From Corallium rubrum (Eukaryota > Cnidaria > Anthozoa > Scleralcyonacea > Coralliidae): a stretch of DNA of 64,000 nucleotides. Shown here in pieces: positions 3,371 through 50,994 of this stretch (position 1 is its first letter; the number at the start of each line of letters is the position of its first letter). The stretch spans positions 41,155,531-41,219,530 of the forward strand of contig OZ035998.1 in assembly GCA_964035015.1 (NCBI GenBank), in the 5' to 3' direction. The position numbers were made by a program, and so were the translations under genes. The notes beneath the pieces were generated by a model that saw only the letters and a list, made by a program, of their open reading frames with translations, had not been told where the DNA came from and searched no databases.

Positions 3371-3524
3371 AATTTATAGATCATGTTGTAACAAACAAAG
3401 AAACAGGCAGATAGTAAAGCGAATGTGTCGAGATTCTTCCGGTGCCCTAGGCTACTCTGGTGCCCTAGATAGTGCGACTTAGGCACTTATGTTACTTACA
3501 AACAAATATTCGAATATCACTTAC

Positions 3525-3721
3525 TTGATGAATTTCACCATTTTCATCCCAACAGATCTGGGCGGCTGTAGTTGGCACAACTGTTGTCGAAACGGCCGTA
3601 GTCGGGACAGCCGTAGTCAAAGCGGTTGTAGTCCGAACAGTAGTCGGAATAGCAGTAGTCGGAGCAGTAGTCGGAACACTAGTAGTCGGGACGCTTGTAG
3701 GTGGAGTAGCAGTGGAGATAG
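3525..3721 (-). CDS. Exon 31: third PTS tract and start of a VWC module
   Basis: About 54 residues of Thr/Pro-rich sequence on a looser four-to-six-residue pattern (VPTTSVPTTAPTTAIPTT), ending in QICWDENGEIHQ, the first strand of a VWC module that continues in exon 32. Acceptor TTTATAG|CT (phase 1), donor CAA|GTAAGT (phase 0). Its entry phase does not fit exon 30, so at least one exon between them is unseen. Confidence 0.8.
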
Positions 3722-6563
3722 CTATAAAAGAAGAAACGAAAATATCCTATTACATATAGACTAAATTAGTATAGGTAATCGCATGGGGCCAAGGAAAATT
3801 AAGGTTTAATTTCACAAGTGTTTTCAAAATTTTACAAAACTGCCCGAGTCGCGAAGCGACGAGGGTAATGTAATTTAGTAATATAGTGGGCAAAATTATT
3901 CAAGAGCTATGTTATGTCCAGAAAATGTCGAAGTACATGTACCTTATCACGGTCGGTGCTCGGCAACATTCCAATTTTCCTCGCTCTACCGCTGTGCCTG
4001 TAGCTTTCTTTTTGTAAACAGGCAACGGCCGTCGTAAATTTTCTGGTGTACAGTATTCATTTTCACTAATAGTTTAGTCATTTTTCCCCCCTTCAATTTT
4101 TCCCCCCTTCACTCCTTCGATAGTTTAAATTTAGTTCAAAGTAAACAAAAAAGCATTTTCAGACCGAAAAACCTTGCAGATTTGTTGAAAAAAGGTCAGT
4201 CCCCTGAAGTTCACTGTTGCTAAGTAACCAAGCGACCAATCCCGTGCAAGAACTGCTGATCAAGGAACAATCAAGTGCAAGTAATTTTGCCCTGAATTAC
4301 AAAAAAATGCTCTCTTCATTAGCCAATCATATTCGAGTAATTTTGCCCTTTATACTAGAAGTTTTTATCAAAAGTTAAGTGCTGTGAGTTGCTACCATTT
4401 ACTATTTAGTAGTAAAATACTTGTTATCGTCCGAAGCATTTTCAATTAAAGAGCTTAAGCATGCGACGTACGCGTTTTCCTCAACATGGACGTCACGCGT
4501 ATAAAATCGAGCCATGCATTAAAGAGTGATGGCGTCAGCACTCTTGCTTGAAGTGAAGAACGGCAATCTATGCAGTTTTAGGTTGTTGATTTGCAGCAAT
4601 AACGGCAGTTGTCGAAAAGTCCTCGAGGAAGAAAGACAACGTGGTGTAGCGTAGCGCACAATTTAATAATGCCTGTCGCTGATCGGTAGACATTGCGTAT
4701 ACCGAAGATCATCGCCCACGAAATCCTAAGAATCGAGTTTGTAAACGCCATATAAACTCGGCCCAGACCTCGTCAAGATTAGTGAGCTTAATTATTAGCT
4801 TCTTAATTTATAGTTTTGATTTTAGTTATTTATAATAAGTTTTTGTTTATCTCATCTTTGGGCTTTTGTATATTTATAATTTTTGGCACTTTCTAATAGG
4901 AATTATCTAATATTAATATGAATTAAAGTTCCATCCCATAATGATGAAACTAAACTGTACATAGAATTGTACAAAATATTATCGATTCATTAAACTGAAC
5001 TGACCTGTGACGACACAATGACAGCATTCGTTTACTGGTTGTTTCAACTCGTAGCCCTGGAACGTTCAAAATGTAGGTCAAATAAGACGTTTATAAATAT
5101 TATAGACGCGACCATACCAAATTGAAGAGACATGGAAAAATTGCTTAAAAGTGTGCAAGACTGGAAATCTGAAAAAAGTTTAGCCTAAATATTTTCGAGT
5201 TCTCATTTCCATAGTGGCGTCAAGATGAAGATAACAAAAAGAGATGGCTGGAAAACTAACTAAAAATGTTCGAGGCGACTCGACATTCTAAACTATACGA
5301 GAAATTCAGTATCACAGTATGTAAATACATGACTACAGATGAACTTCGCTAATTTCTCGGGTGTTTTTCTACATTTTCAAGTGAAACTAATTTGTATAGG
5401 TAATAGCATGGTTTCGAGTGCATTTTGGAAAAAACATGCACAAGCGAGTTTTTGAAAGACTATCAAAATTGCAGAAGGACGAGTGCTATTTGAGGTCTTT
5501 GAAAAACTCACGAGTGTGAGTTTTTTTCAAATTGCACGAGAAATCATGCTATTATACTTATTAATAATATACATGAAAAAATTTATCATAAAGAGAATCT
5601 TTCTAATCAAAATGCTTTGTTCAAATAACATACATGAAAAAAAATTAACAGGAAGAGCTTTTTTTCTAGTAAAAAATGATTTTTGTGCAAATTTAAAAAA
5701 TTACAAAATTTGCACGGTATTTCATTTTTCTGCACTGAATTACACAAAATTGCACTCCTCTCAGCCATCAGAATTGAGAATTTTTTTCATGTCTATTATT
5801 AGCTCGTTAATATCATAGTGAGTTCATCCCGAGAATCAGATTATATACTGGTTTGTTTCTCCATTTGTATTTTTCAGGCTGTTAATTTTACTTATTACGT
5901 TAGAAAATCACTTTGAAAACCTCCATATATAAATTATAAAACAGAATATTTTCAGAACCAGAGCGGATTCAGTTTAAGTTTTTCTTTAAGGTTTAACTTC
6001 GGAATTTATATAGTAAAATCGTTGATAACAAGATTTAACGGTGTGTGAAATAGGGCGGGGCGGGGCGGGGCGGGGGGTTGTTGCGTTCATGTATTTCTAG
6101 TGCATGTGGTGCATTTTGCTAGCTTGGTGTAACAGACGTTTGATCGACGTTCAAAGCTCACACGCTCAGAAAAGATTAGAGCCTCCGACAAGGTTTGAAC
6201 CCGTTGTGACTTTAATTTGATATCTATGTGCAAACGCGAAGCGACTTTTTCTTTTGTCTCATAAGCTCTGAGCTAATGGAACTAATCAGAAATCTATTGA
6301 ATTCAAACAAAAGAAAGTCGCTTGGCGCGAAAAAAATCGCCTAGTGGAAAACCGGCTTAAGAGGCACATACTATCAATTTACAAACATAGCTCTCCATCC
6401 GAGTCTTAGTCCGAGTCTATGTTCAGCGGATTCTAACCCGTCATTAGAATGTTGCATGTTTGATTATCATTCCTGTCTGGGGCTCAGAAACCGCAATTTC
6501 TAAGCAATTGACCTTGACTGAACGTCTTAATGTTAATAGTGCGCGACTATATAATGACATTAC
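3722..6563. other. Intron between exons 31 and 30: mostly unassigned
   Basis: 2.8 kb, AT-rich. A terminal-inverted-repeat element is visible at about 5398-5556 (ends based on taatagcatg). A GC-rich direct repeat (ggggc)n sits at 6056-6076. A repeat at 6270-6365 is shared with 46552-46626. An exon with closing VWC cysteines is expected here from the phases, but none is convincing. Confidence 0.5.
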
Positions 6564-6659
6564 CTGACCACATGTTACATTGCACGTTTGTTGACAAGAG
6601 AATCCATCGGCGAGGCAAACGCACGTCGTGCAGTTCTCGGTTGCGTAAGTTTCGCCAAA
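6564..6659 (-). CDS. Exon 30: VWC-like module
   Basis: A 96-nt phase 0-0 exon: FGETYATENCTTCVCLADGF, SCQQTCNVTCGQ. It matches exon 32 (FGEIWYRRDCEKCSC) in length, phase and Cys pattern. Acceptor TTTATAG|TTT, donor CAG|GTAATG. A following exon with the closing CC-x-C pattern would be expected; I do not find one before exon 31. Confidence 0.85.
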
Positions 6660-6778
6660 CTATAAAGAAAGTAAAGTCGCCGTATTAATAATAATAAATT
6701 AAATCGTTATATCGAAACACAAATTAACAACCTCCGACTATTCCGCGTCAAACTTTCTCCATACTTAGTCCCCCATAC

Positions 6779-6978
6779 CTTAAAAACTTTTCCATCGTGA
6801 TAGCATGGACAACCATAGACTGGATCATTGGGTGAAACGCAATTTCCTTGCCGAAGGACAGTACCGTTCGGACACTGGCAACCAGGTTGGCAAGTAGTAC
6901 AGTTCAACGATTGATCAGCCAGGTTTGCGCATGTCTTAACGCAAGCGCAAGTTAGATTTACGCATTGCATCATGGGAG
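6779..6978 (-). CDS. Exon 29: TIL domain after the giant PTS
   Basis: A TIL domain: CVNLTCACVKTCANLADQSL, CTTCQPGCQCPNGTVL, NCVSPNDPVYGCPCYHDGKV. Acceptor TTTTTAG|CT in phase 1 joins the last codon of exon 28 to give Thr. The donor AAG|GTATGG (phase 0) leads to exon 30. This shows the mucin repeat is interior, not C-terminal. Confidence 0.85.
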
Positions 6979-11082: not shown

Positions 11083-14000
11083 TTGTAGGTATGGATGTTG
11101 ATATCTGGGTGGTCAAAGGCAGTACTTTAGTAGTCACAGGTGATACAGCAGTAGATACTTTAGTAGTCACAGGTGACACAGCAGTAGTCACAGGTGGCAC
11201 AGTAGTAGTCACAGGTGGCACAGCGGTGGATACTTTAGTCGTCACAGGTGGTACAGCAGTGGATATTTTAGTAGTCACAGGTGGCACAGCAGTGGATCCT
11301 TTAGTAGTCACAGGTGGTACAGCGGTAGTCACAGGTGGTACAGCGGTGGATACTTTAGTAGTCACAGGTGGTACAGCAGTGGATACTTTAGTAGTCTGAG
11401 GTGGCACAGCAGTGGATACTTTAGTAGTCACAGGTGGTACAGCAGTGGATACTTTAGTAGTCACAGGTGGTACAGCAGTGGATACTTTTGTAGTCACAGG
11501 TGGGACAGCCGTAGTCACAGGTGGTACAGCAGTGGATACTTTAGTAGTCACAGGAGGCACAGCAGTGGATACTTTAGTTGTCACAGGAGGCACAGCAGTG
11601 GATACTTTAGTAGTCACAGGTGGTACAGCAGTGGATACTTTTGTAGTCACAGGTGGCACAGCCGTAGTCACAGGTGGTACAGCAGTGGATACTTTAGTAG
11701 TCACAGGTGGTACAGCAGTGGATACTTTTGTAGTCACAGGTGACACAGCAGTGGACACTTTAGTAGTCACAGGTGGTACAGCAGTGGATACTTTAGTAGT
11801 CACAGGTGGTACAGCAGTGGATACTTTAGTAGTCACAGGTGGTACAGCAGTGGATACTTTAGTCGTCATAGGTGGTACAGCAGTGGATACTTTAGTAGTC
11901 ACAGGTGGTACAGCAGTGGATACTTTAGTAGTCACAGGGGGCACAGCAGTTGATACTTTAGTAGTCACAGGTGGTACAGCAGTAGTCACAGGTGGTACAG
12001 CGGTGGATACTTTAGTAGTCACAGGTGGCACAGCAGTAGTCACAGGAGGTACAGCCGTGGATACTTTAGTAGTCACAGAAGGCACAGCAGTGGGTACTTT
12101 AGCAGTCACAGGTGGTACAGCAGTGGATACCTTAGTAGTCACAGGTGGTACAGCAGTGGCTACTTTTGTAGTCACAGGTGGCACAGCCGTAGTCACAGGT
12201 GGTACAGCAGTGGATACTTTAGTAGTCACAGGTGGTACAGCAGTGGATACTTTAGTAGTCACAGGTGGTACAGCTGTAGATACTTTAGTAGTCACAGGAG
12301 GTACAGCGGTGGAAACTTTAGTAGTCACAGGTGGTACAGCTGTAGATACTTTAGTAGTCACAGGTGGTACAGCTGTAGATACTTTAGTAGTCACAGGTGG
12401 TACAGCGGTGGATACTTTAGTAGTCACAGGTGGCAAAGCAGTGGATACTTTAGTAGTCACAGGTGGTACAGCAGTGGATACTTTTGTAGTCACAGGTGGC
12501 ACAGCGGTGGATACTTTAGTCGTCACAGGTGGTACAGCAGTGGATACTTTAGTCGTCACAGGTGGTACAGCAGTGCATACTTTAGTCGTCACATGTGGTA
12601 CAGCAGTGGATACTTTAGTCGTCACAGGTGGTACAGCAGTGGATACTTTAGTAGTCACAGGTGGTACAGCAGTAGTCACAGGTGGTACAGCGGTGGAGAC
12701 TTTAGTAGTCACAGGTGGCACAGCAGTAGTCACAGGAGGTGCAGCAGTGGATACTTTAGTAGTCACAGAAGGCACAGCAGTGGATACTTTAGTAGTCACA
12801 GGTGGTACAGCAGTAGTCACAGGTTGCACAGCAGTGGATACTTTAGTAGTCACAGGTGGTACAGCAGTAGATACTTTAGTAGTCACAGGTGGTACAGCAG
12901 TAGTCACAGGTGGTACTGCAGTAGTCACAGGAGGCACAGCAGTGGATACTTTAGTAGTCACAGGTGGTACAGCAGTGGATACTTTAGTAGTCACAGGTGG
13001 TACAGCAGTGGATAGTTTAGTAGTCACAGGTGGTACAGCAGTGGATACTTTAGTAGTCACCGGTGGTACAGCAGTGGATACTTTTGTAGTCACAGGTGGT
13101 ACAGCAGTGGATACTTTTGTAGTCACAGGTGGCACAGCCGTAGTCACAGGTGGTACAGCAGTGGATACTTTAGTAGTCACAGGTAGTACAGCAGTGGATA
13201 CTTTTGTAGTCACAGGTGGCACAGCCGTAGTCACAGGTGGTACAGCAGTGGATATTTTAGTAGTCACAGGAGGCACAGCAGTGGATACTTTAGTAGTCAC
13301 AGGTGGTACGGCTGTAGTCACAGGTGGCACAGCAGTGGATACTTTTGTAGTCACAGGAGGCACAGCAGTGGATACTTTAGTAGTCACAGGTGGTACAGCT
13401 GTAGTCACAGGTGGTACAGCAGTGGATACTTTTGTAGTCACAGGAGGCACAGCAGTGGATACTTTAGTAGTCACACGTGGTACAGCAGTGGATACTTTAG
13501 TAGTCACAGGTGGTACAGCAGTGGATAGTTTAGTAGTCACAGGTGGTACAGCAGTGGATACTTTAGTAGTCACCGGTGGTACAGCAGTGGATACTTTTGT
13601 AGTCACACGTGGTACAGCAGTGGATACTTTTGTAGTCACAGGTGGCACAGCCGTAGTCACAGGTGGTACAGCAGTGGATACTTTAGTAGTCACAGGTGGT
13701 ACAGCAGTGGATACTTTTGTAGTCACAGGTGGCACAGCCGTAGTCACAGGTGGTACAGCAGTGGATACTTTAGTAGTCACAGGAGGCACAGCAGTGGATA
13801 CTTTAGTAGTCACAGGTGGTACGGCTGTAGTCACAGGTGGCACAGCAGTGGATACTTTTGTAGTCACAGGAGGCACAGCAGTGGATACTTTAGTAGTCAC
13901 AGGTGGTACAGCTGTAGTCACAGGTGGTACAGCAGTGGATACTTTTGTAGTCACAGGAGGCACAGCAGTGGATACTTTAGTAGTCACAGGAGGCACAGCA

Positions 14001-17000
14001 GTGGATACTTTAGTAGTCACAGGTGGTACAGCTGTCGTCACAGGTGGTACAGCAGTGGATACTTTAGTCGTCACAGGTGGTACAGCAGTGGATACTTTAG
14101 TAGTCACAGGTGGTACAGCAGTGGATACTTTTGTAGTCACAGGTGGCACAGCCGTAGTCACAGGTGGTACAGCGGTGGATACTTTACTAGTCACAGGAGG
14201 TACAGCTGTAGATACTTTAGTAGTCACTGGTGGCACAGCAGTAGATACTTTAGTTGTCAGAGGTGGTACAGCAGTGGATACTTTAGTAGTCACAGGTGGC
14301 ACAGCAGTGGATACTTTAGTAGTCACAGGTGGTACAGCAGTGGATACTTTTGTAGTCACAGGTGGCACAGCCGTAGTCAGAGGTGGTATAGCAGTGGATA
14401 CTTTAGTAGTCACAGGAGGCACAGCAGTGGATACTTTAGTAGTCACAGGTGGTACAGCAGTGGATACTTTAGTTGTCACAGGTGGTACAGCAGTGGATAC
14501 TTTAGTAGTCACAGGTGGTACAGCAGTGGATACTTTAGTAGTCACAAGTGGTACAGCAGTGGATACTTTAGTAGTCACAGGTGGCACAGCTGTAGATACT
14601 TTAGTAGTCACAGGTGGTACAGCAGTGGATACTTTTGTAGTCACAGGTGGCACAGCCGTAGTCAGAGGTGGTACAGCAGTGGATACTTTAGTAGTCACAG
14701 GAGGCACAGCAGTGGATAGTTTAGTAGTCACAGGTGGTACAGCAGTGGATACTTTAGTAGTCACAGGAGGTACAGCTGTAGATACTTTAGTAGTCACAGG
14801 AGGTACAGCAGTGGATACTTTAGTAGTCACAGGTGGTACAGCAGTGGATACTTTTGTAGTCACAGGTGGCACAGCCGTAGTCACAGGTGGTACAGCAGTG
14901 GATACTTTAGTAGTCACAGGAGGCACAGCAGGGGATACTTTAGTCGTCACACGTGGCACAGCAGTGGATACTTTAGTAGTCACAGGTGGTACAGCAGTGG
15001 ATACTTTTGTAGTCACAGGTGGCACAGCCGTAGTCACAGGTGGTACAGCAGTGGATACTTTAGTAGTCACAGGTGGTACAGCAGTGGATACTTTAGTAGT
15101 CACTGGTGGTACAGCAGTGGATACTTTTGTAGTCACAGGTGGCACAGCCGTAGTCACAGGTGGTACAGCAGTGGATACTTTAGTAGTCACAGGTGGTACA
15201 GCAGTGGATACTTTTGTAGTCACAGGTGGCACAGCAGTGGACACTTTAGTAGTCACAGGAGGCACAGCAGTGGATACTTTAGTAGTCACAGGTGGTACAG
15301 CTGTAGTCGCAGGTGGTACAGCAGTGGATACTTTAGTAGTCACAGGAGGCACAGCAGTGGATACTTTAGTAGTCACAGGTGGTACAGCAGTGCATACTTT
15401 AGTAGTCACAGGTGGTACAGCAGTGGATACTTTTGTAGTCACAGGTGGCACAGCAGTGGACACTTTAGTAGTCACAGGTGGCACAGCAGTGGACACTTTA
15501 GTAGTCACAGGTGGTACAGCAGTGGATACTTTAGTAGTCACAGGTGGTACAGCAGTGGATACTTTAGTAGTCACAGGTGGTACAGCAGTGGATACTTTTG
15601 TAGTCACAGGTGGCACAGCAGTGGACACTTTAGTAGTCACAGGTGGTACAGCAGTGGATACTTTAGTAGTCACAGGTGGTACAGCAGTGGATACTTTAGT
15701 AGTCACAGGTGGTACAGCAGTGGATACTTTTGTAGTCACAGGTGGCACAGCAGTGGACACTTTAGTAGTCACAGGTGGTACAGCAGTGGATACTTTAGTA
15801 GTCACAGGTGGTACAGCAGTGGATACTTTAGTCGTCACAGGTGGTACAGCAGTGGATACTTTAGTCGTCACAGGTGGTACAGCAGTGGATACTTTAGTCG
15901 TCACAGGTGGTACAGCAGTGGATACTTTAGTCGTCACAGGTGGTACAGCAGTGGATACTTTAGTCGTCACAGGTGGTACAGCAGTGGATACTTTTGTAGT
16001 CACAGGTGGCACAGCAGTGGATACTTTAGTAGTCACAGGTGGTACAGCAGTGGATACTTTTGTAGTCACAGGTGGCACAGCCGTAGTCACAGGTGGTACA
16101 GCAGTGGATACTTTAGTAGTCACAGGTGGTACAGCAGTGGATACTTTTGTAGTCACAGGTGGTACAGCAGTGGATACTTTTGTAGTCATAGGTGGCACAG
16201 CCGTAGTCACAGGTGGTACAGCAGTGGATACTTTAGTAGTCACAGGTGGTACAGCAGTGGATACTTTTGTAGTCACAGGTGGCACAGGTAGTCACAGGTG
16301 GTACAGCAGTGGATACTTTAGTAGTCACAGGTGGCACAGCAGTGGACCTTTGTAGTCACAGGTGGTACAGCAGTGGATACTTTAGTAGTCACAGGTGGTA
16401 CAGCAGTGGATACTTTAGTAGTCACAGGTGGTACAGCAGTGGATACTTTAGTAGTCACAGGTGGTACAGCAGTGGATACTTTAGTAGTCACAGGTGGTAC
16501 AGCAGTGGATACTTTAGTAGTCACAGGTGGTACAGCAGTGGATACTTTAGTAGTCACAGGTGGTACAGCAGTGGATACTTTAGTAGTCACAGGGGTACAC
16601 GGATACTTTAGTAGTCCAGGTGGTACACTTTGGATCTAGTAGTCACAGGTGGTACAGCAGTGGATACTTTAGTAGTCACAGGTGGTACAGCAGTGGATAC
16701 TTTAGTAGTCACAGGTGGTACAGCAGTGGATACTTTAGTAGTCACAGGTGGTACAGCAGTGGATACTTTAGTAGTCACAGGTGGTACAGCAGTGGATACT
16801 TTAGTAGTCACAGGTGGTACAGCAGTGGATACTTTAGTAGTCACAGGTGGTACAGCAGTAGATACTTTAGTAGTCACAGGTGGTACAGCAGTGGATACTT
16901 TTGTAGTCACAGGTGGCACAGCAGTGGATACTTTAGTAGTCACAGGTGGTACAGCAGTGGATACTTTAGTAGTCACAGGTGGTACAGCAGTGGATACTTT

Positions 17001-20000
17001 AGTAGTCACAGGTGGTACAGCAGTGGATACTTTAGTAGTCACAGGTGGTACAGCAGTGGATACTTTAGTAGTCACAGGTGGTACAGCAGTGGATACTTTA
17101 GTAGTCACAGGTGGTACAGCAGTGGATACTTTAGTAGTCAGCAGTGTGGCACAGCAGTGGATACTTTAGTAGTCACAGGTGGTACAGCGGTAGTCACAGG
17201 TGGCACAGCAGTGGATACTTTAGTAGTCACAGGTGGTACAGCAGTAGTCACACGTGGCACAGCAGTGGATACTTTAGTAGTCACAGGTGGCACAGCTGTA
17301 GATACTTTAGTAGTCACAGGTGGTACAGCAGTGGATACTTTTGTAGTCACAGGTGGCACAGCCGTAGTCAGAGGTGGTACAGCAGTGGATACTTTAGTAG
17401 TCACAGGAGGCACAGCAGTGGATAGTTTAGTAGTCACAGGTGGTACAGCAGTGGATACTTTAGTAGTCACAGGAGGTACAGCTGTAGATACTTTAGTAGT
17501 CACAGGAGGTACAGCAGTGGATACTTTAGTAGTCACAGGTGGTACAGCAGTAGATACTTTTGTAGTCACAGGTGGCACAGCCGTAGTCACAGGTGGTACA
17601 GCAGTGGATACTTTAGTAGTCACAGGAGGCACAGCAGGGGATACTTTAGTCGTCACACGTGGCACAGCAGTGGATACTTTAGTAGTCACAGGTGGTACAG
17701 CAGTGGATACTTTTGTAGTCACAGGTGGCACAGCCGTAGTCACAGGTGGTACAGCAGTGGATACTTTAGTAGTCACAGGTGGTACAGCAGTGGATACTTT
17801 AGTAGTCACAGGTGGTACAGCAGTGGATACTTTTGTAGTCACAGGTGGCACAGCCGTAGTCACAGGTGGTACAGCAGTGGATACTTTAGTAGTCACAGGT
17901 GGTACAGCAGTGGATACTTTTGTAGTCACAGGTGGCACAGCCGTAGTCACAGGTGGTACAGCAGTGGATACTTTAATAGTCACAGGTGGTACAGCTGTAG
18001 TCACAGGTGGTACAGCAGTGGATACTTTTGTAGTCACAGGAGGCACAGCAGTGGATACTTTAGTAGTCACAGGTGGCACAGCAGTGGAACTTTAGTAGTC
18101 ACAGGTGGACAGCAGTGGATACTTTAGTAGTCACAGGTGGACAGCGTAGTCACAGGTGGTACAGCAGTGGATACTTTAGTAGTCACAGGAGGACAGCAGT
18201 GGATACTTTAGTAGTCACAGGTGGCAGTGGATACAGCAGTGGATACTTTGTAGTCACAGGTGGACAGCGTGGATAGTATCACAGGTGGTACAGCAGTGGA
18301 TACTTTAGTAGTCACAGGTGGGGACAGCAGTGGATACTTTAGTAGTCACAGGTGGTACAGCAGTGGATACTTTAGTAGTCACAGGTGGTACAGCAGTGTA
18401 GTAGTCACAGGTGGTACAGCAGTGGATACTTTGTAGTCACAGGTGGTACAGCAGTGGATACTTTAGTAGTTGGTAGCAGCAGTAGTCACAGGTGGTACAG
18501 CAGTGGATACTTTGTAGTACAGGTGGACAGCAGTGGATACTTTACACAGGTGGCACAGCAGTGGACACTTTAGTAGTCACAGGTGGCACAGCAGTGGATA
18601 CTTTAGTAGTCACAGGTGGTACAGCTGTAGTCACAGGTGGTACAGCAGTGGATACTTTAGTAGTCACAGGAGGCACAGCAGTGGATACTTTAGTAGTCAC
18701 AGGTGGTACAGCAGTGGATACTTTAGTAGTCACAGGTGGTACAGCAGTGGATACTTTTGTAGTCACAGGTGGCACAGCAGTGGACACTTTAGTAGTCACA
18801 GGTGGTACAGCAGTGGATACTTTAGTAGTCACAGGTGGTACAGCAGTGGATACTTTAGTAGTCACAGGTGGTACAGCAGTGGATACTTTGTAGTCACAGG
18901 TGGACAGCAGTGGAACTTTAGTAGTCACAGGTGGTACAGCAGTGGATACTTTAGTAGTCACAGGTGCAGTGATACTTAGGTGAGACAGTAGTCACAGGTG
19001 GATGGATACTTTAGTAGTCACAGGTGGTACAGCAGGATGGTACAGCAGTGGATACTTTAGTAGTCACAGGTGGTACAGCAGTGGATACTTTAGTAGTCAC
19101 AGGTGGTACAGCAGTGGATACTTTAGTCGTCACAGGTGGTACAGCAGTGGATACTTTAGTCGTCGCAGGTGGTACAGCAGTGGATACTTTAGTCGTCACA
19201 GGTGGTACAGCAGTGGATACTTTAGTCGTCACAGGTGGTACAGCAGTGGATACTTTAGTCGTCACAGGTGGTACAGCAGTGGATACTTTAGTAGTCACAG
19301 GTGGCACAGCAGTGGATACTTTTGTAGTCACAGGTGGCACAGCAGTGGACACTTTAGTAGTCACAGGTGGTACAGCAGTGGATACTTTAGTAGTCACAGG
19401 TGGTACAGCAGTGGATACTTTAGTCGTCACGGGTGGTACAGCAGTGGATACTTTAGTCGTCGCAGGTGGTACAGCAGTGGATACTTTAGTCGTCACAGGT
19501 GGTACAGCAGTGGATACTTTAGTCGTCACAGGTGGTACAGCAGTGGATACTTTAGTCGTCACAGGTGGTACAGCAGTGGATACTTTAGTCGTCACAGTTG
19601 GTACAGCAGTGGATACTTTTGTAGTCACAGGTGGCACAGCAGTGGATACTTTTGTAGTCACAGGTGGCACAGCAGTGGATACTTTTGTAGTCACAGGTGG
19701 CACAGCCGTAGTCACAGGTGGTACAGTAGTGGATACTTTAGTAGTCACAGGTGGTACAGCAGTGGATACTTTTGTAGTCACAGGTGGTACAGCAGTGGAT
19801 ACTTTTGTAGTCATAGGTGGCACAGCCGTAGTCACAGGTGGTACAGCAGTGGATACTTTAGTAGTCACAGGTGGTACAGCAGTGGATACTTTTGTAGTCA
19901 CAGGTGGCACAGCCGTAGTCACAGGTGGTACAGCAGTGGATACTTTAGTAGTCACAGGAGGCACAGCAGTGGACACTTCAGTAGTCACAGGTGGTACAGC

Positions 20001-21660
20001 AGTGGATACTTTAGTAGTCACAGGAGGTACAGCTGTAGATACTTTAGTAGTCACAGGTGGTACAGCAGTGGATACTTTAGTAGTCACAGGTGGTACAGCA
20101 GTGGATACTTTAGTAGTCACAGGTGGTACAGCGGTGGATACTTTAGTAGTCACAGGAGGTACAGCTGTAGATACTTTAGTAGTCGCAGGTGGTACAGCAG
20201 TGGATGCTTTAGTAGTCACAGGTGGTACAGCAGTGGATACTTTAGTAGTCACAGGTGGAACAGCAGTGGATGCTTTAGTAGTCACAGGTGGTACAGCAGT
20301 GGATACTTTAGTAGTCACAGGTGGTACAGCAGTAGATACTTTAGTAGTCACAGGTGGTACAGCAGTGGATACTTTAGTAGTCACAGGTGGTACAGCAGTG
20401 GATACTTTAGTAGTCACAGGTGGTACAGCAGTGGATGCTTTAGTAGTCACAGGTGGTACAGCAGTGGATACTTTAGTAGTCACAGGTGGAACAGCAGTGG
20501 ATGCTTTAGTAGTCACAGGTGGTACAGCAGTGGATACTTTAGTAGTCACAGGTGGTACAGCAGTGGATACTTTAGTAGTCACAGGTGGAACAGCAGTGGA
20601 TGCTTTAGTAGTCACAGGTGGTACAGCTGTAGATACTTTAGTAGTCACAGGTGGCACAGCAGTGGATACTTTAGTAGTCACAGGTGGTACAGCGGTAGTC
20701 ACAGGTGGCACAGCAGTGGATACTTTAGTAGTCACAGGTGGTACAGCAGTAGTCACACGTGGCACAGCAGTGGATACTTTAGTAGTCACAGGTGGCACAG
20801 CAGTGGGTACTTTAGTAGTCACAGGTGGCACAGCAGTGGATACTTTAGTAGTCACAGGTGGCACAGCAGTAGTCACAGGTGGCACAGCAGTGGATACTTT
20901 AGTAGTCACAGGTGGTACAGCAGTGGATACTTTAGTAGTCACAGGTGGTACAGCAGTGGTCACAGGTGGCACAGCAGTAGTCACAGGAGGCACAGCAGTG
21001 GATACTTTAGTAGTCACAGGTGGCACAGCAGTAGTCACAGGTGGTACAGCAGTGGATACTTTAGTAGTCACAGGTGGTACAGCAGTGGTCACAGGTGGCA
21101 CAGCAGTAGTCACAGGAGGCACAGCAGTGGATACTTTAGTAGTCACAGGTGGCACAGCAGTAGTCACAGGTGGTACAGCAGTGGATACTTTAGTAGTCAC
21201 ACGTGGCACAGCAGTGGGTACTTTAGTAGTCACAGGTGGCACAGCAGTGGATACTTTAGTAATCACAGGTGGCACAGCAGTAGTCACAGGTGGTACAGCA
21301 GTGGATACTTTAGTAGTCACAGGTGGCACAGCAGTAGTCACAGGTGGTACAGCAGTGGATACTTTAGTAGTCACAGGAGGTACAGCAGTGGATACTTTAG
21401 TAGTTACAGGTGGTACAGCAGTGGATACTTTAGTAGTTACAGGTGGCACAGCAGTAGATACTTTAGTAGTTACAGGTGGTACAGCAGTTGATACTTTAGT
21501 AGTCAGAGGTGATACAGCGGTAGTCACAGGTGGTACAGCAGTGGATACTTTAGTAGTCACAGGTGGTACAGCAGTGGATACTTTAGTAGTCGCAGGTGGC
21601 ACAGCAATTGATACTTTAGTAGTCACAGGTGGCACAGCAGTAGTGACTTTGGTGGTGGTG
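11083..21660 (-). repeat. 33-bp / 21-bp coding minisatellite with higher-order structure
   Basis: Plus-strand unit is gtggatactttagtagtcac followed by aggtggtacagca (33 bp); the short unit lacks the first 12 bp. Variant bases fall mainly at third codon positions of the minus-strand frame (ggt/gga, tac/cac, agt/cgt, tta/ttt). Shared rare variants reveal nested duplications: 513 bp (from 13.01 to 13.52 kb), 2,705 bp (from 14.66 to 17.37 kb), 297 bp (19.16 to 19.46 kb) and 132 bp (20.95 to 21.08 kb). Units from 18.07 to 19.03 kb are ragged, with many 1-12-bp losses. Confidence 0.95.
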
Positions 21661-21767
21661 GTGGTGAGTAGTTTTATACTTGAATGTTTAATAGTGGTTT
21701 GAGGAGGTTTAATTGTAACAGGTATACACAAGCAGCACCCTTCGGCCGGGTGTTGAATGTTTTCACC
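11083..21767 (-). CDS. Exon 28: end of VWC and giant PTS mucin domain (10.7 kb exon)
   Basis: Starts GENIQHPAEGCCLCIPV, closing the VWC module, then a short Thr-rich lead (TIKPPQTTIKHSSIKLLTTT) and then only repeats. The dominant unit is KVSTAVPPVTT (11 residues, 33 bp), mixed with a 21-bp form AVPPVTT lacking KVST, roughly 340 units in all. Thr, Ser, Pro and Val make up nearly everything, with a regular Lys: an O-glycosylated mucin domain. A good donor (ACAA|GTAAAT) follows the last repeat, and phase 1 matches exon 29. As written, the frame is broken several times between 16.27 and 19.03 kb, but the same frame is open for 5.3 kb below and 2.7 kb above. The total, 10,685 nt, is not the 3n+1 its phases require. 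Confidence 0.88.
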
Positions 21768-22924
21768 CTAAGAATACAAAACACTGATAAATTAGAAAAG
21801 ATGAAAGATTTTATTAATTGTTAAAGATTTTATGTTAAATATCGGTATAAAAAGGTTTGAACCATTCATTCAAATGTCCTTATTTTGTTAATAATCTTTT
21901 AGAAAATCTACCACTTCGGAACCTCTACATTCATTTCGAAACCCGAAGACAATTAGGGAAAAAAAAGTGCATTTAAAACGGAAATAAACGTTCAAAATAC
22001 TCCGCTATGTTTTAGTACAATATTGTTATAAGTAATCAGTTAGCGGTTTGACGAGGTAAATTATTTTTGGAATCTTGTGCGTATATAGTAAGATAATTTC
22101 CGGTCTGATTTTGAGTGGTCAAAGTTACTCTTTATGTAGATTTAAAAGTGATAGCCTGTTAAACTCGAAAAGCGGAGCGTTTTGTTATTTTAAAATTACT
22201 CCTTTTTCTTTTTTAAAATAATCCGGGTGTTGAAATGACTCCATATGTGCTAAAGATGTAGACATTTATTTTTCCTGTTTAAGACAATGTCTTAAAAAAC
22301 TCGTTAATTTATGGGGAAAACGCTGAGGAAGTCGAAGTCCGTACACCATGCATCTCCGTTGGTTTTATATCTGATAAAGAATCTTCCTAATTTATATGAA
22401 CTTAAGCTTAGGTTTCCCCGGCTTAGACAGGGTGATTTTTCAAACTAACTTACCAAATAGGTCGATTCTAAAGCTATATCGCGCCTCATGTTTTAATGCT
22501 GCTCAAGTTTTAACCCTTTCATGCCCATCGTTTTTGTCGAACAACTTTATCTTTTTACTCGGTCTAACACCAGACGATTTTACTCGTCAGGGGGGAGAAC
22601 TCGCGGAGAGCCATGCGTGAAAGGCTTAAATACTAGTTCTCAAACTCATCAATAATTCATGAGGAAACTACCAAAAAACAAATGTTTAGCAGAATTTAGA
22701 AATCGGAGTAGGATTACAGTCAAATTTAGCAAACTTTGAAGTTGCTTTTCTCTAAAAATAGATTCTATCGGTGCTCATCCTCCGATATCTAAATACAGCT
22801 AAGATGGTTAAAGAACGTTGCTTCGCCTCGTATTTTCAACCTAGACCAAGGACTCGTGTTGGATAGATTACTTAATGCTATAAAGGCCACAAAGGTCGCA
22901 AACAGCTCAAGTACCAATAGTATC

Positions 22925-23475
22925 AGTATAATAGTAGTATAATTACAATAGTATACACCAATGCCGAACATCTCCACCTTAACGTCATGTAGTTTCAGTA
23001 TAATATTAGTATAATTAGTATCAGTAGTATTAGTATCAATAGTATCAGTATAATATTAGTATAATTGCAATAGTATACACCAATGCCGAACATCCCCACC
23101 TTAACGTCATGTAGTTTCAGTTTAATATTAGTATCAGTAGTATTAGTATCGGTATAATATTAGTATAATTGCAATAGTATACACCAATGCCGAACATCCC
23201 CACCTTAACGTCATGTAGTTTCAGTATAATATTAGTATAATTAGTATCAGTAGTATTAGTATCAATAGTATCAGTATAATATTAGTATAATTGCAATAGT
23301 ATACACCAATACCGAACATCCCCACCTTAACGTCATGTAGTTTCAGTATAATATTAGTATAATTAGTATCAGTAGTATTAGTATCAATAGTATCAGTATA
23401 ATATTAGTATAATTGCAATAGTATACACCAATACCGGATATTTCTCATGCCGAACATCCCCACCTTAACGTCATG
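22925..23475. repeat. Minisatellite, unit about 105-125 bp
   Basis: The block catccccaccttaacgtcat followed by gtagtttcagtataatatta and a variable (agtat) section occurs about five times. Anchor tagtatacaccaatgccgaa or its variant lies near 22949, 23070, 23176, 23299 and 23417. Length variation comes from the inner agtatcagtagtatt tract. Confidence 0.9.
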
Positions 23476-24451: not shown

Positions 24452-25015
24452 TCAAATTCTGTACAACATATGTGAATTAAAACAAATCGTATAAAATAGC
24501 AACGAAGAAAAATATATCAGTTGAACTGAGATGAGCGCAAGTATCAAATTGCATTATACGGCTATTTACTTGGACGGTCGAACGCGGTCATATTTAAAGT
24601 AAATCAATCGTCTGTAGGTTTGTGCCATTTGGGAAACTTGTACGGTTAGATAGAGCGTTAAATTCTGTACAACATATGTGAATTAGAGAACATGGTATAG
24701 AATAACAACGGAGAAAAGGCTATTTGAGCTGACATGAGCGCAAATATCAAATTGCATTATTACGCTATTTACTTGGCGTACGGTCAAACGCGGTCATATT
24801 TAAAGTAAATCAATCGTCTGTAGGTTTGTGCCATTTGGGAAACTTGCACGGTTAGATAGAGAGTTAAATTCTGTACAACATATGTAAATTAGAACAAATC
24901 GTATAGAATAGCAACGGAGAAAAATCTATTTGAACTGAGATGAGCGCAAATATCAAATTGCATTATTAAGCTATCACTTGGCGTACGGTCAGACGCGATC
25001 ATTTTAAAGTATCCC
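24452..25015. repeat. Tandem repeat, unit about 205 bp, nearly three copies
   Basis: Unit starts attctgtacaacatatgtga at about 24456, 24661 and 24867 and includes gtctgtaggtttgtgccatt. The third copy is truncated after the ggtcagacgcg block. Copies differ by a few percent. Confidence 0.9.
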
Positions 25016-26027: not shown

Positions 26028-26132
26028 TTCTGGGCAATGGAGAATAAGACAGTTCCGTTCACAAGATACACTTCTGTTGCTTTGGCACTCGCATTCAGTC
26101 CAGCACGGTTCCTTCCACCAGGTTTGGCCTTC
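26028..26132 (-). CDS. Exon 27: VWC module, middle
   Basis: A 105-nt phase 0-0 exon: EGQTWWKEPCWTECECQSNR, SVSCERNCLILHCPE. It fits a VWC/chordin-type module between the CVYNGTTYK end of exon 26 and the GCCLC start of exon 28. The same three-exon layout (end of PTS / W-containing 96-105-nt exon / CC-containing exon) is partly repeated at 2.6-3.7 kb. Its downstream intron begins next to a long foldback element. Confidence 0.88.
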
Positions 26133-26328: not shown

Positions 26329-26797
26329 GGGTGTTTATATGGAGGCGAGCCAGCCCGGGTACCAGAGCTAGTCCGATTTGCCGAGATCTTACTTGTGCTA
26401 TTATTTCTTGTTAATTATCATCTGTGATGGATAACTTTATTCGTTTATCATCTTGTGTTTATATGAGAGCCGAGCGAGGTCGCCTAGCTGAGATCTCGGT
26501 TTGTGTGTCCGCTCTCGGTTACCCGGGGTGGCTCACCTACCCGGGCTGGCACTAAAAGCTACGTGCACGTAACAATTGTTTTGATCAGCTTTTTTCGACA
26601 ATATTGACAATTTACAAGTTCTGCTTATTCGTGTGCAGTTCACATTTAAAACAATGAGATTTCGTGTCTTGCCAGAACTGATAAATGACGCCAACCCGGC
26701 TATGTAGGCGAGCTAGTCCTCATGTAAGCACGAATAAAAATCATCTCGCCAAAGCGGGCTAGTTCGGGCACCCGGCCTCCATATAAACACCGCCTAA
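26329..26797. mobile_element. TIR element in the intron between exons 27 and 26
   Basis: Ends gggtgtttatatggaggcga and cggcctccatataaacaccg are inverted repeats of about 25 bp around 470 bp. The interior has inverted cgggctagttcg/cgagctagtcct blocks. No coding frame. Confidence 0.7.
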
Positions 26798-26947
26798 AAC
26801 GAAAAAGCCAGTGCACTTTGAGGGGAATGTTTTTCGTTCGCGCAAAATATATTTGCGCCAGCTATGGCAAGCAAGACCAATTGCTCGCGTGAAACACAAG
26901 AATGACAAATTATATACGCGCAGCTCACATGCTTGCAACCTACGTAC

Positions 26948-27366
26948 CTTGTAAGTGGTACCATTGTAGACACATGTTGGCGCAAGTGTGGAAAGGGTCG
27001 TAAAAGGCGTCGTTATTTCAGTAAAAGCCGTTGTCTTCGTCGATTTCGTGGGTGTGAACACACCGGTCGGTGCCATACAGAACCTGGATTCATCCTCGGC
27101 GCCAGGACAATCAGGAGCGCCATTACAAAGAAGTGATAGTTGAATACACTGTCCATTCGAAGAGCATTTCCATGTTCCACTAGGACAAGACGCACAGTTT
27201 CCTTCATCTTCGCCCATTGCACAATCCTTGAAATAATCAGACACGTGATCGCGGAATACAGCTACCGTTCAAGCAAACGAACTCGCAGGGTAAAGGTGTA
27301 GTCGGGCAGATCTCCGGGAGCTCGTCCTCGCCTTCTGAGCAGTCCGTGTCGTTGTCGCACAAAAAC
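26948..27366 (-). CDS. Exon 26: end of LDLa-3, LDLa-4 (frameshifted), LDLa-5, PTS linker, start of VWC
   Basis: Begins [21 protein letters not shown], completing LDLa-3. LDLa-4 starts [12 protein letters not shown], but the frame then stops. The rest ([15 protein letters not shown]) is read one frame away from about 27240, and the expected fourth Cys is Ser there. LDLa-5 ([34 protein letters not shown]) is intact. It is followed by a Thr-rich linker and CVYNGTTYK, the first strand of a VWC module. Flanking phases (2 in, 0 out) predict a length of 3n+1; the observed 419 nt has one base too many. This is either a sequencing indel or a real lesion. Confidence 0.85.
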
Positions 27367-28787
27367 CTTGAACGACGGGGGAGAAAAATAAAGACAAAAA
27401 TAGAATCAGTCGTCGAAAAGACCACTTTTTAAATAACAATATTTTAAGAGCCCTTGCTTTCTAATGAGAATAGATTTATTCAATTTACAACGAGTACAAC
27501 CTGTTGAAAGACATGTCGAAAGATTGTCTGGTGCAAATTTCCGATAAAAAAAAGACCATACCTTCGCCCTCATGATGGCTGAATGCAAAACATGTCAAAC
27601 ATTCATTCAAAAATCGGTTGCTTATACGCAATCGATTAAATTCTAGGAGTGCTTTAATACCGATCCTTTTCATGTGACGTCAAGACAGCCCCGACATAAC
27701 ACTCGTTCCCAGCCATTGTGGGAAAAGCTGAACTAGGCGCGCAAAACAAGTGCAACTGGGCGCGCGCTCTCGCCAATGTGACCTTTCCCCTTGAGCTTGG
27801 GTACGAAGTTGAAAAAGGCCATCTTAAAAAGTGGATTCAAAGATCCAATGTTCAACAACTCAAATCCATTGATTTATCTCCAACAGGAAAGTAAGTAATT
27901 GCTGCGAGCCCGCGAGCCGGATATATTCTTGACGGGATCTCGATTTGTGCGATTTTTGTGTGTCACGATGATTTTGAGCATGCACTACGTATGTCTAGCA
28001 GGCTGCTTCGCCTTTCTTCGCCTACGTTCAGAGCACGTTGCTTGAAGCTTCATCCTTGCATCGCTTCAACTTCAAGGTAAGTGTTCATATTCGCAAATTA
28101 ATCATGCCAAATTCAGACTTATTTGTTGCTGGAAGCATTCATCAAGATCAGATCACGAACAATTCAGTGACATTTCAAGGGGAAGACAATGTTCGTTTAG
28201 GAGTTTTTCAGCGTTGTTTATGTGCTCAGAGTTTGCCGCTCGAACACTGGACCGCTTCCACAGTACTGCCAGCCCCACTATCGACTCGCAGCAATTCCCT
28301 TGCAATTCCAGTCATAAAAATAGTCCCGACAGCTCGCAATTGTTAAAAGATTAACAAAAATATAAGTTGTACGTGTACATGTAGTGCATGTGGTACGAAC
28401 GTCTACCAAACGTCTGTTAGATAAACAGAAAGTAAAACAAAAGATGAAAGATTTATGTTCGAGTTAAAACGAGAAACGTGCAATCATAGTTAGTGGAGGG
28501 GGGTGGTTTGGAAGGTCCATTGTCTTTCAAGATTACGCAATGGTCATGTTGATGAAAACAGTACTTCATGTTGGAGGAAGGCAATTAGTTGAAGAAAGGA
28601 AATTCTATGGACACGTGACGACGAAGGACTACACTAATCGAACGTTTATATTGGATGACTGCTCATTATACAGAAAATACAATATGTTCAGTGACCATGA
28701 AATTAAACAACTTGAACAAAAACATGGAACGATGACTTTTGCCGAGTTTCCAAACCATCCCCCTCTACTAACTATGGTGCAATTTAC
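27367..28787. other. Intron between exons 26 and 25
   Basis: Contains one family-D MITE (28504-28756, ends ggtttggaaggtc and ccgagtttccaaacc) close to the exon 25 donor. The remainder, about 1.1 kb, shows nothing I can assign. A plus-strand open stretch at 27778-27890 has no recognised domain. Confidence 0.6.
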
Positions 28788-29155
28788 CTGTGACTAATGC
28801 ACTTTCCATTTCGACACTGAAACTTGTCGACACAAGAAACATTGACGCAATTAGATCCTTCGTCAGAACCGTCGGGACAGTCCACCTTGCCATCGCACCG
28901 CAAGGAATTCTGGATGCACTCTCCACTTACACACGTGAATCCAGCACAAGGAGCCGTGGTGGGAGGTGACGCTCGACTTGGCGTTGTCGCTGTGGATGGT
29001 GGAGTAGACACTGGTTTGGGACAACCAAAAAACTCGACACGAAGACATATAGCTCCTAACCAATTGGTGGGCAAGACTTTCAAATATCTAGCAAAGATTG
29101 CGGCACTTAGTTTATTTCTTACCGTAGTGTAATCATCTACGTTTCCAGGAAACAT
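28788..29155 (-). CDS. Exon 25: end of F5/8C, PTS linker, LDLa-2 and start of LDLa-3
   Basis: Finishes F5/8C (AIFARYLKVLPTNWLGAICL then RVEFFGC, the usual A-R-Y-x-R-x-x-P-x-x-W-x-x-x-I-x-L-R-x-E-x-x-G-C end). A Pro/Ser/Thr linker follows, then an LDLa module (GFTCVSGECIQNSLRCDGKV, DCPDGSDEGSNC) and the start of the next (CVDKFQCRNGKCISH). Exit phase 2; the codon split across the intron gives Arg when joined to exon 26. Confidence 0.92.
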
Positions 29156-29400
29156 CTAAAAGTGAAAAGATGGTACAGTCAAATATTTAGCCGGAGATGG
29201 GCTAAACCAATTAATGGCGAAGCCACGGAAGAAACACAAAGTAAGCAACAGGGCTAGTGAACAATTATAGTGATACACGAAATAAATTGCGTTTATCAGT
29301 AGCAGGTAAATTATGTAATCAAGCTAAATTCTTAATATAGCTGCCATTCTAGTGGCGGAAACTAATTTTTCCCAGCACTGCAGCATAAGTAAAATTTTAC

Positions 29401-29690
29401 CTTCGTCGAGCCTCCGTCCTTGAAAGAAATCCATTTCGCACCATTAAGACTGGATGTCAGATTAAACGACTGCACATATTGGTCGGAATGTTGTAATCCT
29501 TGTGTGCTTATAGCAGTAACTTGGTAGACATCACGCAGATCAACTTCAAGCCATTGATTCGCGTCGTTAACGCCAGCACACCAAGCAACAAAACCAGTTC
29601 GGTTAAGTCGGGCTTGGTTTCCCGAGTACATCAGACTCTTTTGACTGCAAACTTTAATAGCAAAGTCTGGAATGCGGTTATCAGACATGC
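29401..29690 (-). CDS. Exon 24: F5/8C (discoidin) domain, first part
   Basis: Encodes MSDNRIPDFAIKVCSQKS, ARLNRTGFVAWCAGVNDANQ, WLEVDLRDVYQVTAISTQG and SFNLTSSLNGAKWISFKDGG. W-L-x-V-D-L followed by V-x-x-I-x-T-Q-G is the signature of the coagulation factor 5/8 C-terminal (discoidin) domain, a beta-sandwich that binds glycans or lipids. Entry phase 1 from exon 23, exit phase 0. Position between LDLa modules resembles SCO-spondin. Confidence 0.92.
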
Positions 29691-29834
29691 CTGTATAAGA
29701 TATAAAGACATACTATAGATTAATTTGTACAGAGTAAAGATTGATACGTTAAATTTCCTTTTTTGAATGCAGATCCATTTTGTCAGTTTCAACCGTTCTT
29801 GAAGCTAAATCTTAAAGTGCAAATGAAACGAAAA

Positions 29835-31185: not shown

Positions 31186-31558
31186 TTTCGCTGCAGGTTG
31201 TTCTTAAGCAAGATTTTCAGCAAACGTGTCTGAAAGGCGTGGACTAGCCTGTTCACGGATGTAGACATTTGGACAATACATTTTGCAATAAGTGTTGGAC
31301 ATGCATGAAAAAGTAGACGTCAAACGGTAAACAAACTTTTTAAGGTCAGGAGGTTGATAGAGTACGAAGTTAATATAACACGCCAGTTTAGAGTTAATTG
31401 CAAATAAAACGGGCCAATAGGAATGCGGTCATCAACAACCTTAAATTCGCCGTTATGCGTAAATAAATTGGATTTTATCCCGAATTCACAAAGCTCTGCA
31501 CTCAATACACCCCTGCCACCCACACTATTCGAATGCGCGAAAAACAGTTAAATCTTAC

Positions 31559-32087
31559 CCAACGCTTGATTACAAATTGAAACTCCTCCTGGACAACTTT
31601 TCTCGTCCGTCTGATCAGGACAATCTTCTTCACCATCACAAAGCCACTGATTGGATATACAACTACTGTTCATCCTACACAGAAACTCACTCGCTAAACA
31701 AATACCAGTAGTCGGAACAGGAGTGGAAGACGTCGAAACTGCGGTCACCGAAACAGGGATACACACATCGCAACAACTTGCACGAACCACTTGATACTGT
31801 GGAGCAGGACAGTAGATTACGGGAGCGCAATCCTTTGGCTGGCACAACACTTTATTATTCCAACATAAACATTCATCGCAACCGGAGGTCCACCGCGAAC
31901 CAGGTTTGTAAAACTTGCCGTGAGAATAGCAAGGACAGGTAGACGGATGCACACAATAGGTGCCATTAAAAGCCATGTCGCTTGGACAGCTGCAACCAGG
32001 AACACAAGTAACGGTAGGAATTGGATTACATGATTCGTTCATGTATTGGCATTTCTCTTCACAGTCTGGCAAGCACTCGTTATAAAC
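31559..32087 (-). CDS. Exon 23: TIL, VWC-like module, short PTS linker, LDLa-1
   Basis: Three domains in one 529-nt exon. First a TIL domain (ECLPDCEEKCQYMNESCNP to STCPCYSHGKF). Then a VWC-like stretch (GCDECLCWNNKVLCQPKDC, ending RASCCDVCIPV). After a Ser/Thr/Pro linker comes an LDL-receptor class A module (EFLCRMNSSCISNQWLCDGE, EDCPDQTDEKSC) with the acidic calcium-binding D-G-E-x-D-C-x-x-x-x-D-E pattern. Entry phase 0, exit phase 1. Confidence 0.9.
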
Positions 32088-32705: not shown

Positions 32706-33021
32706 TCCCCCCCCCCCCCCCCCAGTCATTTATTGTTTATTTATCCAAGCAACACACTTTGAAAACAGTTACTCTAGCATGGTTAATATATTAGTCGCAC
32801 AACTAGAGGAAAATTCCAGGACTTTCAAGGATCCCTATCGATTCTCATGGACTTTCCAAGCCTGGACTTTTATCAGTTTCGAATTCAAGGACTTTGCAAG
32901 GAGCCTTAATCGTAAACCTCAGTAAACGCATTAATTCGCCGTTTGTATAATAGCATACACCTAAAATAATTTAAACTTGCGTTTAAATACCGCCACTAGA
33001 GCAAAAATAATCAGAACTTAC

Positions 33022-33430
33022 TTTGCCAGAAGTACAAAGAAGCAATGTTGTCACATGGGTGACTGGTGGGAAAACAGTGGTTGCCTTGGTAGTAGCAGGT
33101 GGTACGACAGTAGTCACCTTGGTAGTAGTGGGTGGTACGACAGTAGTCGCCTTGGTAGTAGCGGATGGTACGACAGTAGTCGCCTTGGTAGTAACGGGTG
33201 GTACAACAGTGACCTTGGTAGTAGCGGGCGGTACGACAGTGGTCGCCTTGGTAATAGCGGGTGGTACGACAGTGGTCGCCTTGGTAATAGCGGGTGGTGC
33301 AACAGTGGTCGCCTTGGTAGTAGCGGGTGGTACGAGGGTAGATTTGGCTGTGGTTACTTTAGCAGTTGTAGTAGGGATAGGAGTAGTACACGTCTCCCCA
33401 TTACAACGAAAACATCCCGACTGACAAACA
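33022..33430 (-). CDS. Exon 22: end of E-3 fused to a short PTS (mucin) array
   Basis: The first 17 codons finish the E module (VCQSGCFRCNGETC). The rest, about 115 residues, is Thr/Pro/Val-rich and built from an 11-residue unit of the form TTVVPPATTKA (33 bp), in about eight to nine imperfect copies, suited to dense O-glycosylation. The unit has the same length and pattern as the giant array of exon 28. Acceptor TTTTCAG|T, donor AAA|GTAAGT, phase 0. Confidence 0.88.
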
Positions 33431-33595
33431 CTGAAAAGGAAAGGGATCTACCGTTAATCACCGTTTTGACCAAATATATTAATTTAGTTATAACTTTAAA
33501 AAGTTTGATTTAGTCTGATTCAAAATTTTTCAAGTTAAACCTACGTTAATTTTATTCTAGTAAACTTTCATAAATTTGTTAATATTATGGCTTAC

Positions 33596-33833: not shown

Positions 33834-33885
33834 CTGGAAATAAAAATAAAATACGGATATAAGAAAAACTCACTAGTATTGCGTT

Positions 33886-34892: not shown

Positions 34893-35053
34893 GTATATGT
34901 TTATTAACTATGACCGTGGAGAACAGTTTGTAGAGAGACCGAAAGCGACCTAATATAACCGATTTCACTTTCCGCACAGGAATCAGCGTTCCATTTCTGA
35001 AAATGAAGTTCACTGTTCCGTTCTGACAGAATTTATGTTTAATAAAAACTTAC

Positions 35054-48175: not shown

Positions 48176-48194
48176 CTAAGACACGAGAAATAAC

Positions 48195-50962: not shown

Positions 50963-50994
50963 CTGTAATACAAAGAATAGAAAAATTAATGTCA

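Follow-up and report, generated by a model that had tools for sequence, protein, structure and literature searches.

A giant PTS-like repeat exon, frame-broken as assembled, in a probable gel-forming-type mucin gene of the coral Corallium rubrum

We analyzed a 64,000-bp stretch of the genome of the anthozoan Corallium rubrum (assembly GCA_964035015.1, contig OZ035998.1, forward-strand positions 41,155,531 to 41,219,530; hereafter, "the window"), whose minus strand carries an array of tandem units, 33 and 21 bp long, at ~ 21,656–11,123 inside what is probably a gene for a gel-forming-type mucin. Coordinates without a contig prefix are window positions, C8 is the contig that also carries the window, and all features of the gene lie on the minus strand. 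The units encode KVSTAVPPVTT (cyclically AVPPVTTKVST, 11 residues) and AVPPVTT (7 residues); the 21-bp unit is the 33-bp unit minus the KVST codons, and both lengths are multiples of three. A cyclic-unit alignment, which superseded an anchor scan yielding only 193 anchors, counts 343 units (277 of 11 residues, 65 of 7 residues, and one fragment) with the middle of the array taken as assembled, where length and unit number are unreliable. This bears out the figure of about 340 units given in an initial annotation of this DNA. The longest exact repeat within the array is 293 bp. Repeat finding, the unit alignment and splice sites together delimit a giant proline/threonine/serine (PTS)-like exon at 11083–21767, which opens with the end of a VWC domain (GENIQHPAEGCCLCIPV), continues into the array, and is frame-broken mid-array in the assembly; the array thus stands between VWC and TIL domains. 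Other tandem repeats in the window lie outside recognised exons, at 61485–61934 (5-bp repeat, 450 bp), 22910–23436 and 24454–25011 (122-bp minisatellite and 206-bp tandem).

Both ends of the exon fit their neighbors. The acceptor TTTTGTATTCTTAG/GGT (exon boundaries marked by a slash) at 21767 is in phase 0 and compatible with an upstream phase-0 donor, GAA/GTATGT at 26028, picked among several GT sites; the donor CAA/GTAAAT at 11083 is in phase 1 and compatible with the phase-1 acceptor TTTTTAG/CA at 6978. These fits refer to the neighboring recognised exons, between which additional small exons are possible. A single large exon is expected here, because mucin repeats generally sit in one (PMC1552070, which gives chicken Muc13, with several exons, as an exception). 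The splice sites and phases agree with this expectation, yet the assembled sequence does not keep the frame: the interval of 10,685 bp leaves a remainder of 2 modulo 3, whereas phases 0 and 1 demand a remainder of 1. The initial annotation was right about the acceptor after a CC-x-C motif of a VWC domain, the donor, and the phases kept with recognised exons, but its "uninterrupted" run does not hold, as every minus-strand frame is stopped between two open blocks of 918 and 1,736 codons. Its single giant exon with a mucin domain therefore stands only in part, as a very long mucin-like array whose flanking splice sites fit one exon and not as one continuous frame in this sequence.

In the open-frame listing, block A (918 codons, 19014–21767) and block C (1,736 codons, 11083–16291), whose frame differs from that of block A, are clean. 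Serine plus threonine (S+T) make up 35.4% and 35.3% of the two blocks, and proline 19.0%. Since this composition misses the usual threshold for PTS domains (> 40% S+T, ~ 5% P; PMC9080433), we term the array PTS-like. It is also basic and valine-rich: block C has 137 K and 3 R with no D or E in 1,723 residues, and both clean blocks together (2,604 residues) have 206 K and 5 R versus 1 D and 1 E. One might guess that such an array binds acidic glycans or surfaces. Pfam, applied throughout to 31 chosen stretches of the window, matched the array to Baculo_PEP_C (E down to 1.1e-45), a match that we discarded as low-complexity because no single stretch passed alone; over 11084–21767 it serves as a caution on profile scores for low-complexity proteins. 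A pattern with guessed codons, GCAGTACCGCCAGTTACAACC, had no match anywhere in the genome, and a literature search for the unit peptides found no paper.

The host gene begins, as far as it is recognised, with the C-terminal half of an EMI domain (58729–58863; profile positions 37–69 of 69, E 3.6e-4, 21.7 bits versus a cut-off of 25) and five EGF-like exons spanning 51971–57205 (57205–57035, 56615–56343, 54296–54153, 52596–52456 and 52105–51971, the last below every EGF cut-off). Three VWD-C8-TIL units identified by Pfam and by their CGLC motifs follow: D1 (47122–51005, CGLC at 47983), D2 (42040–45116, CGLC at 43569) and, after a TIL domain assigned to D' by position (37663–37923, E 2.7e-11), D3 (33595–36494), comprising a VWD end (profile 132–155 only, CGLC at 36452), C8 and TIL. 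With D' placed by position and the third VWD represented by its end, this is the N-terminal D1-D2-D'-D3 assembly; among solved structures, the D1 VWD-C8 exon scores best against FCGBP, VWF, MUC2, MUC5AC and MUC5B. After D3 comes a short PTS exon (32986–33447; 37.4% S+T) with 7–8 units of VVPPATTKATT (7 used here; 8.0 copies by the repeat finder), a unit differing from the giant exon's by 10 bases and 4 residues. It is followed by a TIL-VWC-LDLa exon (31551–32087; Pfam), which has strong matches at four places in the genome, itself included, then by F5/8 type C in two exons (the second below cut-off) and LDLa (28787–29712; Pfam), and by LDLa exons (Pfam) with a T/P-rich linker ending in the start of a VWC domain, CVYNGTTYK by eye (26762–27428). 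This VWC domain is split across three exons, all assigned by eye: its middle exon (26028–26132), which has no Pfam match alone, was recognised by comparison with the VWC at 31551–32087, and the giant exon completes it. Beyond the giant exon, the next recognised exon is a phase-compatible TIL (6710–6978; Pfam), followed by a VWC fragment (6447–6659; E 0.0038, 17.9 bits versus a cut-off of 27.6), a further short PTS exon without a Pfam family (3495–3746), and another VWC fragment (2558–2923; 27.3 bits versus 27.6). A 51-residue stretch of that exon, delimited by eye, with 47.1% S+T and 15.7% P, exceeds the PTS threshold. A cystine knot (Pfam Cys_knot, E 8.9e-9) adjoins the window on the same strand at C8:41152804–41152529, 2.7 kb beyond base 1. 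We infer that all recognised exons and the cystine knot, which would thereby be joined to the D domains, belong to one transcript. No CysD family match was found among the 31 stretches scanned.

The unit peptide also occurs in a paralogue 10.7 Mb away on the same contig (C8:~30.43–30.49 Mb), where it forms a giant array at C8:30.455–30.470 Mb. The array there is open over 5,086 codons, of which the last ~ 20 lie beyond the likely donor (by eye); just upstream of this frame it runs on for a few units in another frame, consistent with an internal acceptor or an indel. The two arrays encode identical unit peptides, and 4 of the 33 consensus bases differ between them (6 relative to the paralogue's majority unit), all synonymously. 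The paralogue's array has an S+T content of 34.4% and a longest exact repeat of 1,054 bp, but no exact match of at least 40 bp joins it to the window's array, so that neither is a recent copy of the other. The two genes further share a cystine knot, a TIL domain (54% identical) and the TIL-VWC-LDLa exon (47% identical). A third array of the KVSTAVPPVTT unit, at C8:30350116–30351710, is frame-broken and without codon bias relative to its own consensus; we interpret it as a decayed relative of the array in the paralogue and used it as a control. About five array units also lie beside a simple repeat (read as FTSLH) at C1:85816209–85816766, perhaps a transposed fragment.

Genome-wide, at least four cystine knots were found (12 candidates, all scored): that of the window gene and those at C8:30432408, C25:4936955 and C8:30534815. 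The best four matches to the D1 exon, and likewise the four strong ones to the TIL-VWC-LDLa exon (100, 56, 49 and 40% identity), fall in these four neighborhoods, with order and strand alike. Taking each neighborhood to hold one gene, the window gene would be one of four gel-forming-mucin-type genes. Their PTS slots differ. Before the TIL-VWC-LDLa exon, the window gene has its 7–8 units of VVPPATTKATT; the C8:30.45 gene, the paralogue described above, has its giant exon of ~ 5,000 codons or more (a stretch upstream of it reads N and hides the preceding exon, with VWD matches farther upstream); the C25 gene has, after TIL, a 559-codon frame of TVQPPVTTGT-type repeats (37.4% S+T); and the fourth gene has, also after TIL, a 1,034-codon frame of ASTTGTT-type repeats (63.2% S+T, 2.8% P), with an LDLa-like piece intervening. 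Between VWC and TIL, the first two genes show the reverse: here the window gene carries its giant exon, and the C8:30.45 gene a short one (30445921 downwards, limits by eye). Two further loci were noted in passing: a PTS run of TTTGPTTKPNVTSTAPQR-type repeats among LDLa domains at C8:30573266–30574480, a further PTS slot in the fourth gene's neighborhood, and serial VWD-C8 matches at C15:11.07–11.10 and 11.69–11.75 Mb, perhaps FCGBP-like, several with equal scores as if recently duplicated. The genome's one GFP-family match scores best, among PDB structures, against red fluorescent proteins such as drFP583, which are anthozoan proteins; this agrees with an anthozoan source without pointing to a species.

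Very probably, a secreted, polymeric mucin of the gel-forming type has in this array its largest glycosylation-type (PTS-like) domain, a reading supported by the D1-D2-D'-D3 assembly with its CGLC motifs, the downstream cystine knot, the fitting splice phases, the codon bias described below, and the paralogues. The initial annotation had set the host apart from classical mucins. The D domains, the short PTS exon after D3 and the cystine knot argue otherwise, as they follow the plan of gel-forming mucins and VWF; the EMI, LDLa and F5/8C domains that it had named are real additions to this plan, although EMI is partial and below its cut-off. On the strength of these additions, one may propose instead that the product serves in a matrix or has some other secretory function, as an SCO-spondin-type or other matrix glycoprotein and not a mucus mucin, with the array acting as a spacer. 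SCO-spondin combines EMI, three VWD units, LDLa, F5/8C and a cystine knot, as the window gene does, and is defined by TSP1 repeats. The TSP1-like motif WxxWxxC, sought by regular expression and not by profile, is absent from the minus strand over the window plus 8 kb beyond, and the window gene differs from SCO-spondin further in its large PTS exons; the three paralogues, too, carry large PTS exons before the TIL-VWC-LDLa exon. In favor of this alternative, an SCO-spondin appears alongside a mucin-19-like protein in coral larval proteomics (PMC12960093). We consider this alternative unlikely; it disputes the role of the array and not its coding, and overlaps in part with the mucin reading.

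The break in the frame raises a different question. Between the clean blocks lies an unreliable middle of ~ 2.7 kb (16288–19035), in which the cyclic-unit alignment places 34 frameshifting indels in five patches (19035–18886, 18545–18087, 17145–17138, 16635–16590 and 16346–16288; 722 bp in total). Between the patches, the middle deviates from the unit at only 14 of 2,026 bases. The clean array of 9,811 bp has zero internal frameshifts, its single event, at 21656, being the edge of the repeat. That event is one of nine frameshifts flagged where the repeat model extends over, or abuts, non-repeat ends; the other eight were excluded, and it was kept as the 35th. Under an even spread, the probability of at least 34 of 35 events falling in the patches is near 1e-38, a descriptive figure, since the patch limits were drawn after seeing the events. 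Substitutions show no excess in the patches (6/703 versus 122/9,811 in the clean array, p = 0.48). Altogether the middle holds 37 indels, 24 of them single-base, and 6 of the 20 single-base deletions remove one identical base of the unit.

The broken middle is most likely sequence error rather than a real null allele, because the indels cluster without substitutions; decay would bring substitutions, whereas raw long-read error need not, and recurrent loss of one unit base is expected of systematic read error. Errors and low coverage have been reported for the assembled human MUC2 and MUC6 arrays (PMC6269512). If the indels were real, the exon would be formerly functional, with the protein truncated mid-array in this lineage or haplotype, and the assembly taken at face value agrees: all three minus-strand frames are stopped between 19.0 and 16.3 kb, and the outer blocks are mutually out of phase. 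However, decay predicts substitutions and spread, neither of which is seen here, and the one decayed array that we found looks different, with differences of 39/27/45 over the three codon positions and a non-synonymous to synonymous (N/S) rate of 0.71 against its own consensus. We regard a null or decaying allele as improbable, and the same clustering without substitutions led us to dismiss a pseudogene.

Whether the array is coding at all was addressed through the variation among its units, restricted to 33-bp matches with at most 9 mismatches (71, 137, 64, 369 and 39 units in five arrays; 7-residue units excluded). In block C, differences from the unit fall on codon positions 1/2/3 as 23/13/163, and distinct variants cover 19 of 31 possible synonymous versus 17 of 67 non-synonymous changes (p = 0.0013); block A gives 12/31 versus 12/67 (p = 0.042). 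The N/S token rates are 0.08 and 0.14 for blocks C and A, respectively. For the paralogue, the counts are 22/31 versus 32/67 (p = 0.049), and the decayed control, compared with its own consensus, which is the paralogue-type unit, shows no bias (13/31 versus 26/67, p = 0.83). Third-position-biased variation and the paralogue thus support the reading of the array as protein-coding. Chance is not a concern for the array as such, but we dropped the long open frame as proof of coding: the 33- and 21-bp units keep the plus strand open too (1,651 and 894 codons over the array), which makes openness weak evidence.

If the array were a non-coding intronic minisatellite, spliced out while the VWC half and TIL on either side are connected in some other way, it would have company in the arrays at 22910–23436 and 24454–25011, and the locus is known here from DNA. 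This reading is nonetheless highly improbable, and we dismissed it on splice phases, codon-position bias and the paralogue: the missing VWC half (GCCLC) comes after the acceptor and leads in frame into the repeat, at whose other end there is a donor of compatible phase; the variants favor the third codon position; and the paralogue retains an identical unit peptide, with consensus differences that are only synonymous.

Several observations weigh against the mucin reading or weaken its support. The array's S+T content of 35% is under the 40% often taken to define PTS domains, EMI is partial, and two VWC fragments, one EGF and the second F5/8C piece are below their cut-offs. In the codon test, the middle block is not significant (8/31 synonymous versus 8/67 non-synonymous, p = 0.14); the paralogue's reference unit lies two common synonymous bases off its majority unit, which inflates its synonymous count; and the control depends on the reference unit, since the decayed array compared with the window's unit gives 14/31 versus 16/67 (p = 0.058) and an N/S of 0.10, a low value due to fixed synonymous bases that separate the two. 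Array units are mutual copies, so variant counts are not independent. The third-position bias recurs in one antisense frame (p = 0.014 for block C and 0.0079 for the paralogue, below the sense value of 0.049). As this frame is both open and biased, the codon test cannot fix the strand, which we assign from the flanking domains and splice phases; these lie on the minus strand, and we dismissed an antisense gene on their account. Finally, the gene itself is represented here by genomic sequence alone.

In the VWF/mucin family, the cystine knot dimerizes chains, D domains link them through disulfides, and the repeat is O-glycosylated. By analogy, the C-terminal cystine knot of the window gene's product would dimerize chains, its D1-D2-D'-D3 assembly would join the dimers through disulfides, and its Pro/Thr/Ser repeat would be O-glycosylated into a long, stiff, hydrated, extended rod giving the gel its mass; secretion, glycosylation and polymerization are all predicted from the family in this way. 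Unequal crossing-over could add or remove whole units, and the length of the domain could then change without loss of frame because 33 and 21 bp are both multiples of three.

Compared with the gel-forming mucins MUC2, MUC5AC, MUC5B and MUC6 and with VWF, the window gene shares D1-D2-D'-D3 and the cystine knot, and adds EMI, EGF, LDLa and F5/8C. PTS tandem repeats in one large exon would be a further likeness to the mucins, the central exons of MUC5AC and MUC5B making up 60–80% of their coding sequence (PMC10983947). The window gene departs from them in a Val-rich, basic repeat with 35% S+T and in the place of its giant array. A long repetitive PTS segment is normal for mucins; what is unusual here is its position in the protein, at a second, downstream PTS site after VWC and not at the standard one after D3, and its garbled middle in the assembly. 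To our knowledge, a basic Val-rich array is unlike those of vertebrate mucins. A nearer likeness by repeat type, though not by homology, is the jellyfish mucin qniumucin, a nearly pure short repeat of VVETTAAP or VIETTAAP that is Val-rich with a low Thr share; its unit differs in having eight residues, with Glu and without Lys (PMC2801673). The amino-terminal plan of mucins is reported to have arisen early, in ctenophores (PMC9169620). Cnidarian gel-forming mucins are already on record, though thinly: besides qniumucin, two partial mucin5B-like sequences from Actinia have a domain organization conserved in other cnidarians (PMC9080433). We did not find a description of this gene in the cnidarian mucin literature searched; the cnidarian mucin models of Lang and colleagues lay outside that comparison, and we do not claim its absence from print.

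The most notable observation is that one peptide unit occupies two non-homologous slots of two paralogues: the giant exon of the C8:30.45 gene sits in the slot of the window gene's short PTS exon, and where the window gene has its giant exon, the C8:30.45 gene has a short one. The shared unit could stem from transfer of an array between the loci, or both slots could already have held it in an ancestor. More tentatively, and at a little less than even chances in our judgment, mucin repeat arrays may act as mobile cassettes, passing from a PTS slot in one gene to a non-homologous slot in a paralogue, after which the peptide and not the DNA is conserved. For annotation, the locus illustrates that a giant mucin exon can appear frame-broken inside a 53-Mb contig, and automatic annotation may split or drop such an exon. 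For the biology of the family, four gel-forming-mucin-type genes in one genome, with PTS slots that differ in position, unit and length, would make the turnover of mucin repeats directly comparable between paralogues.

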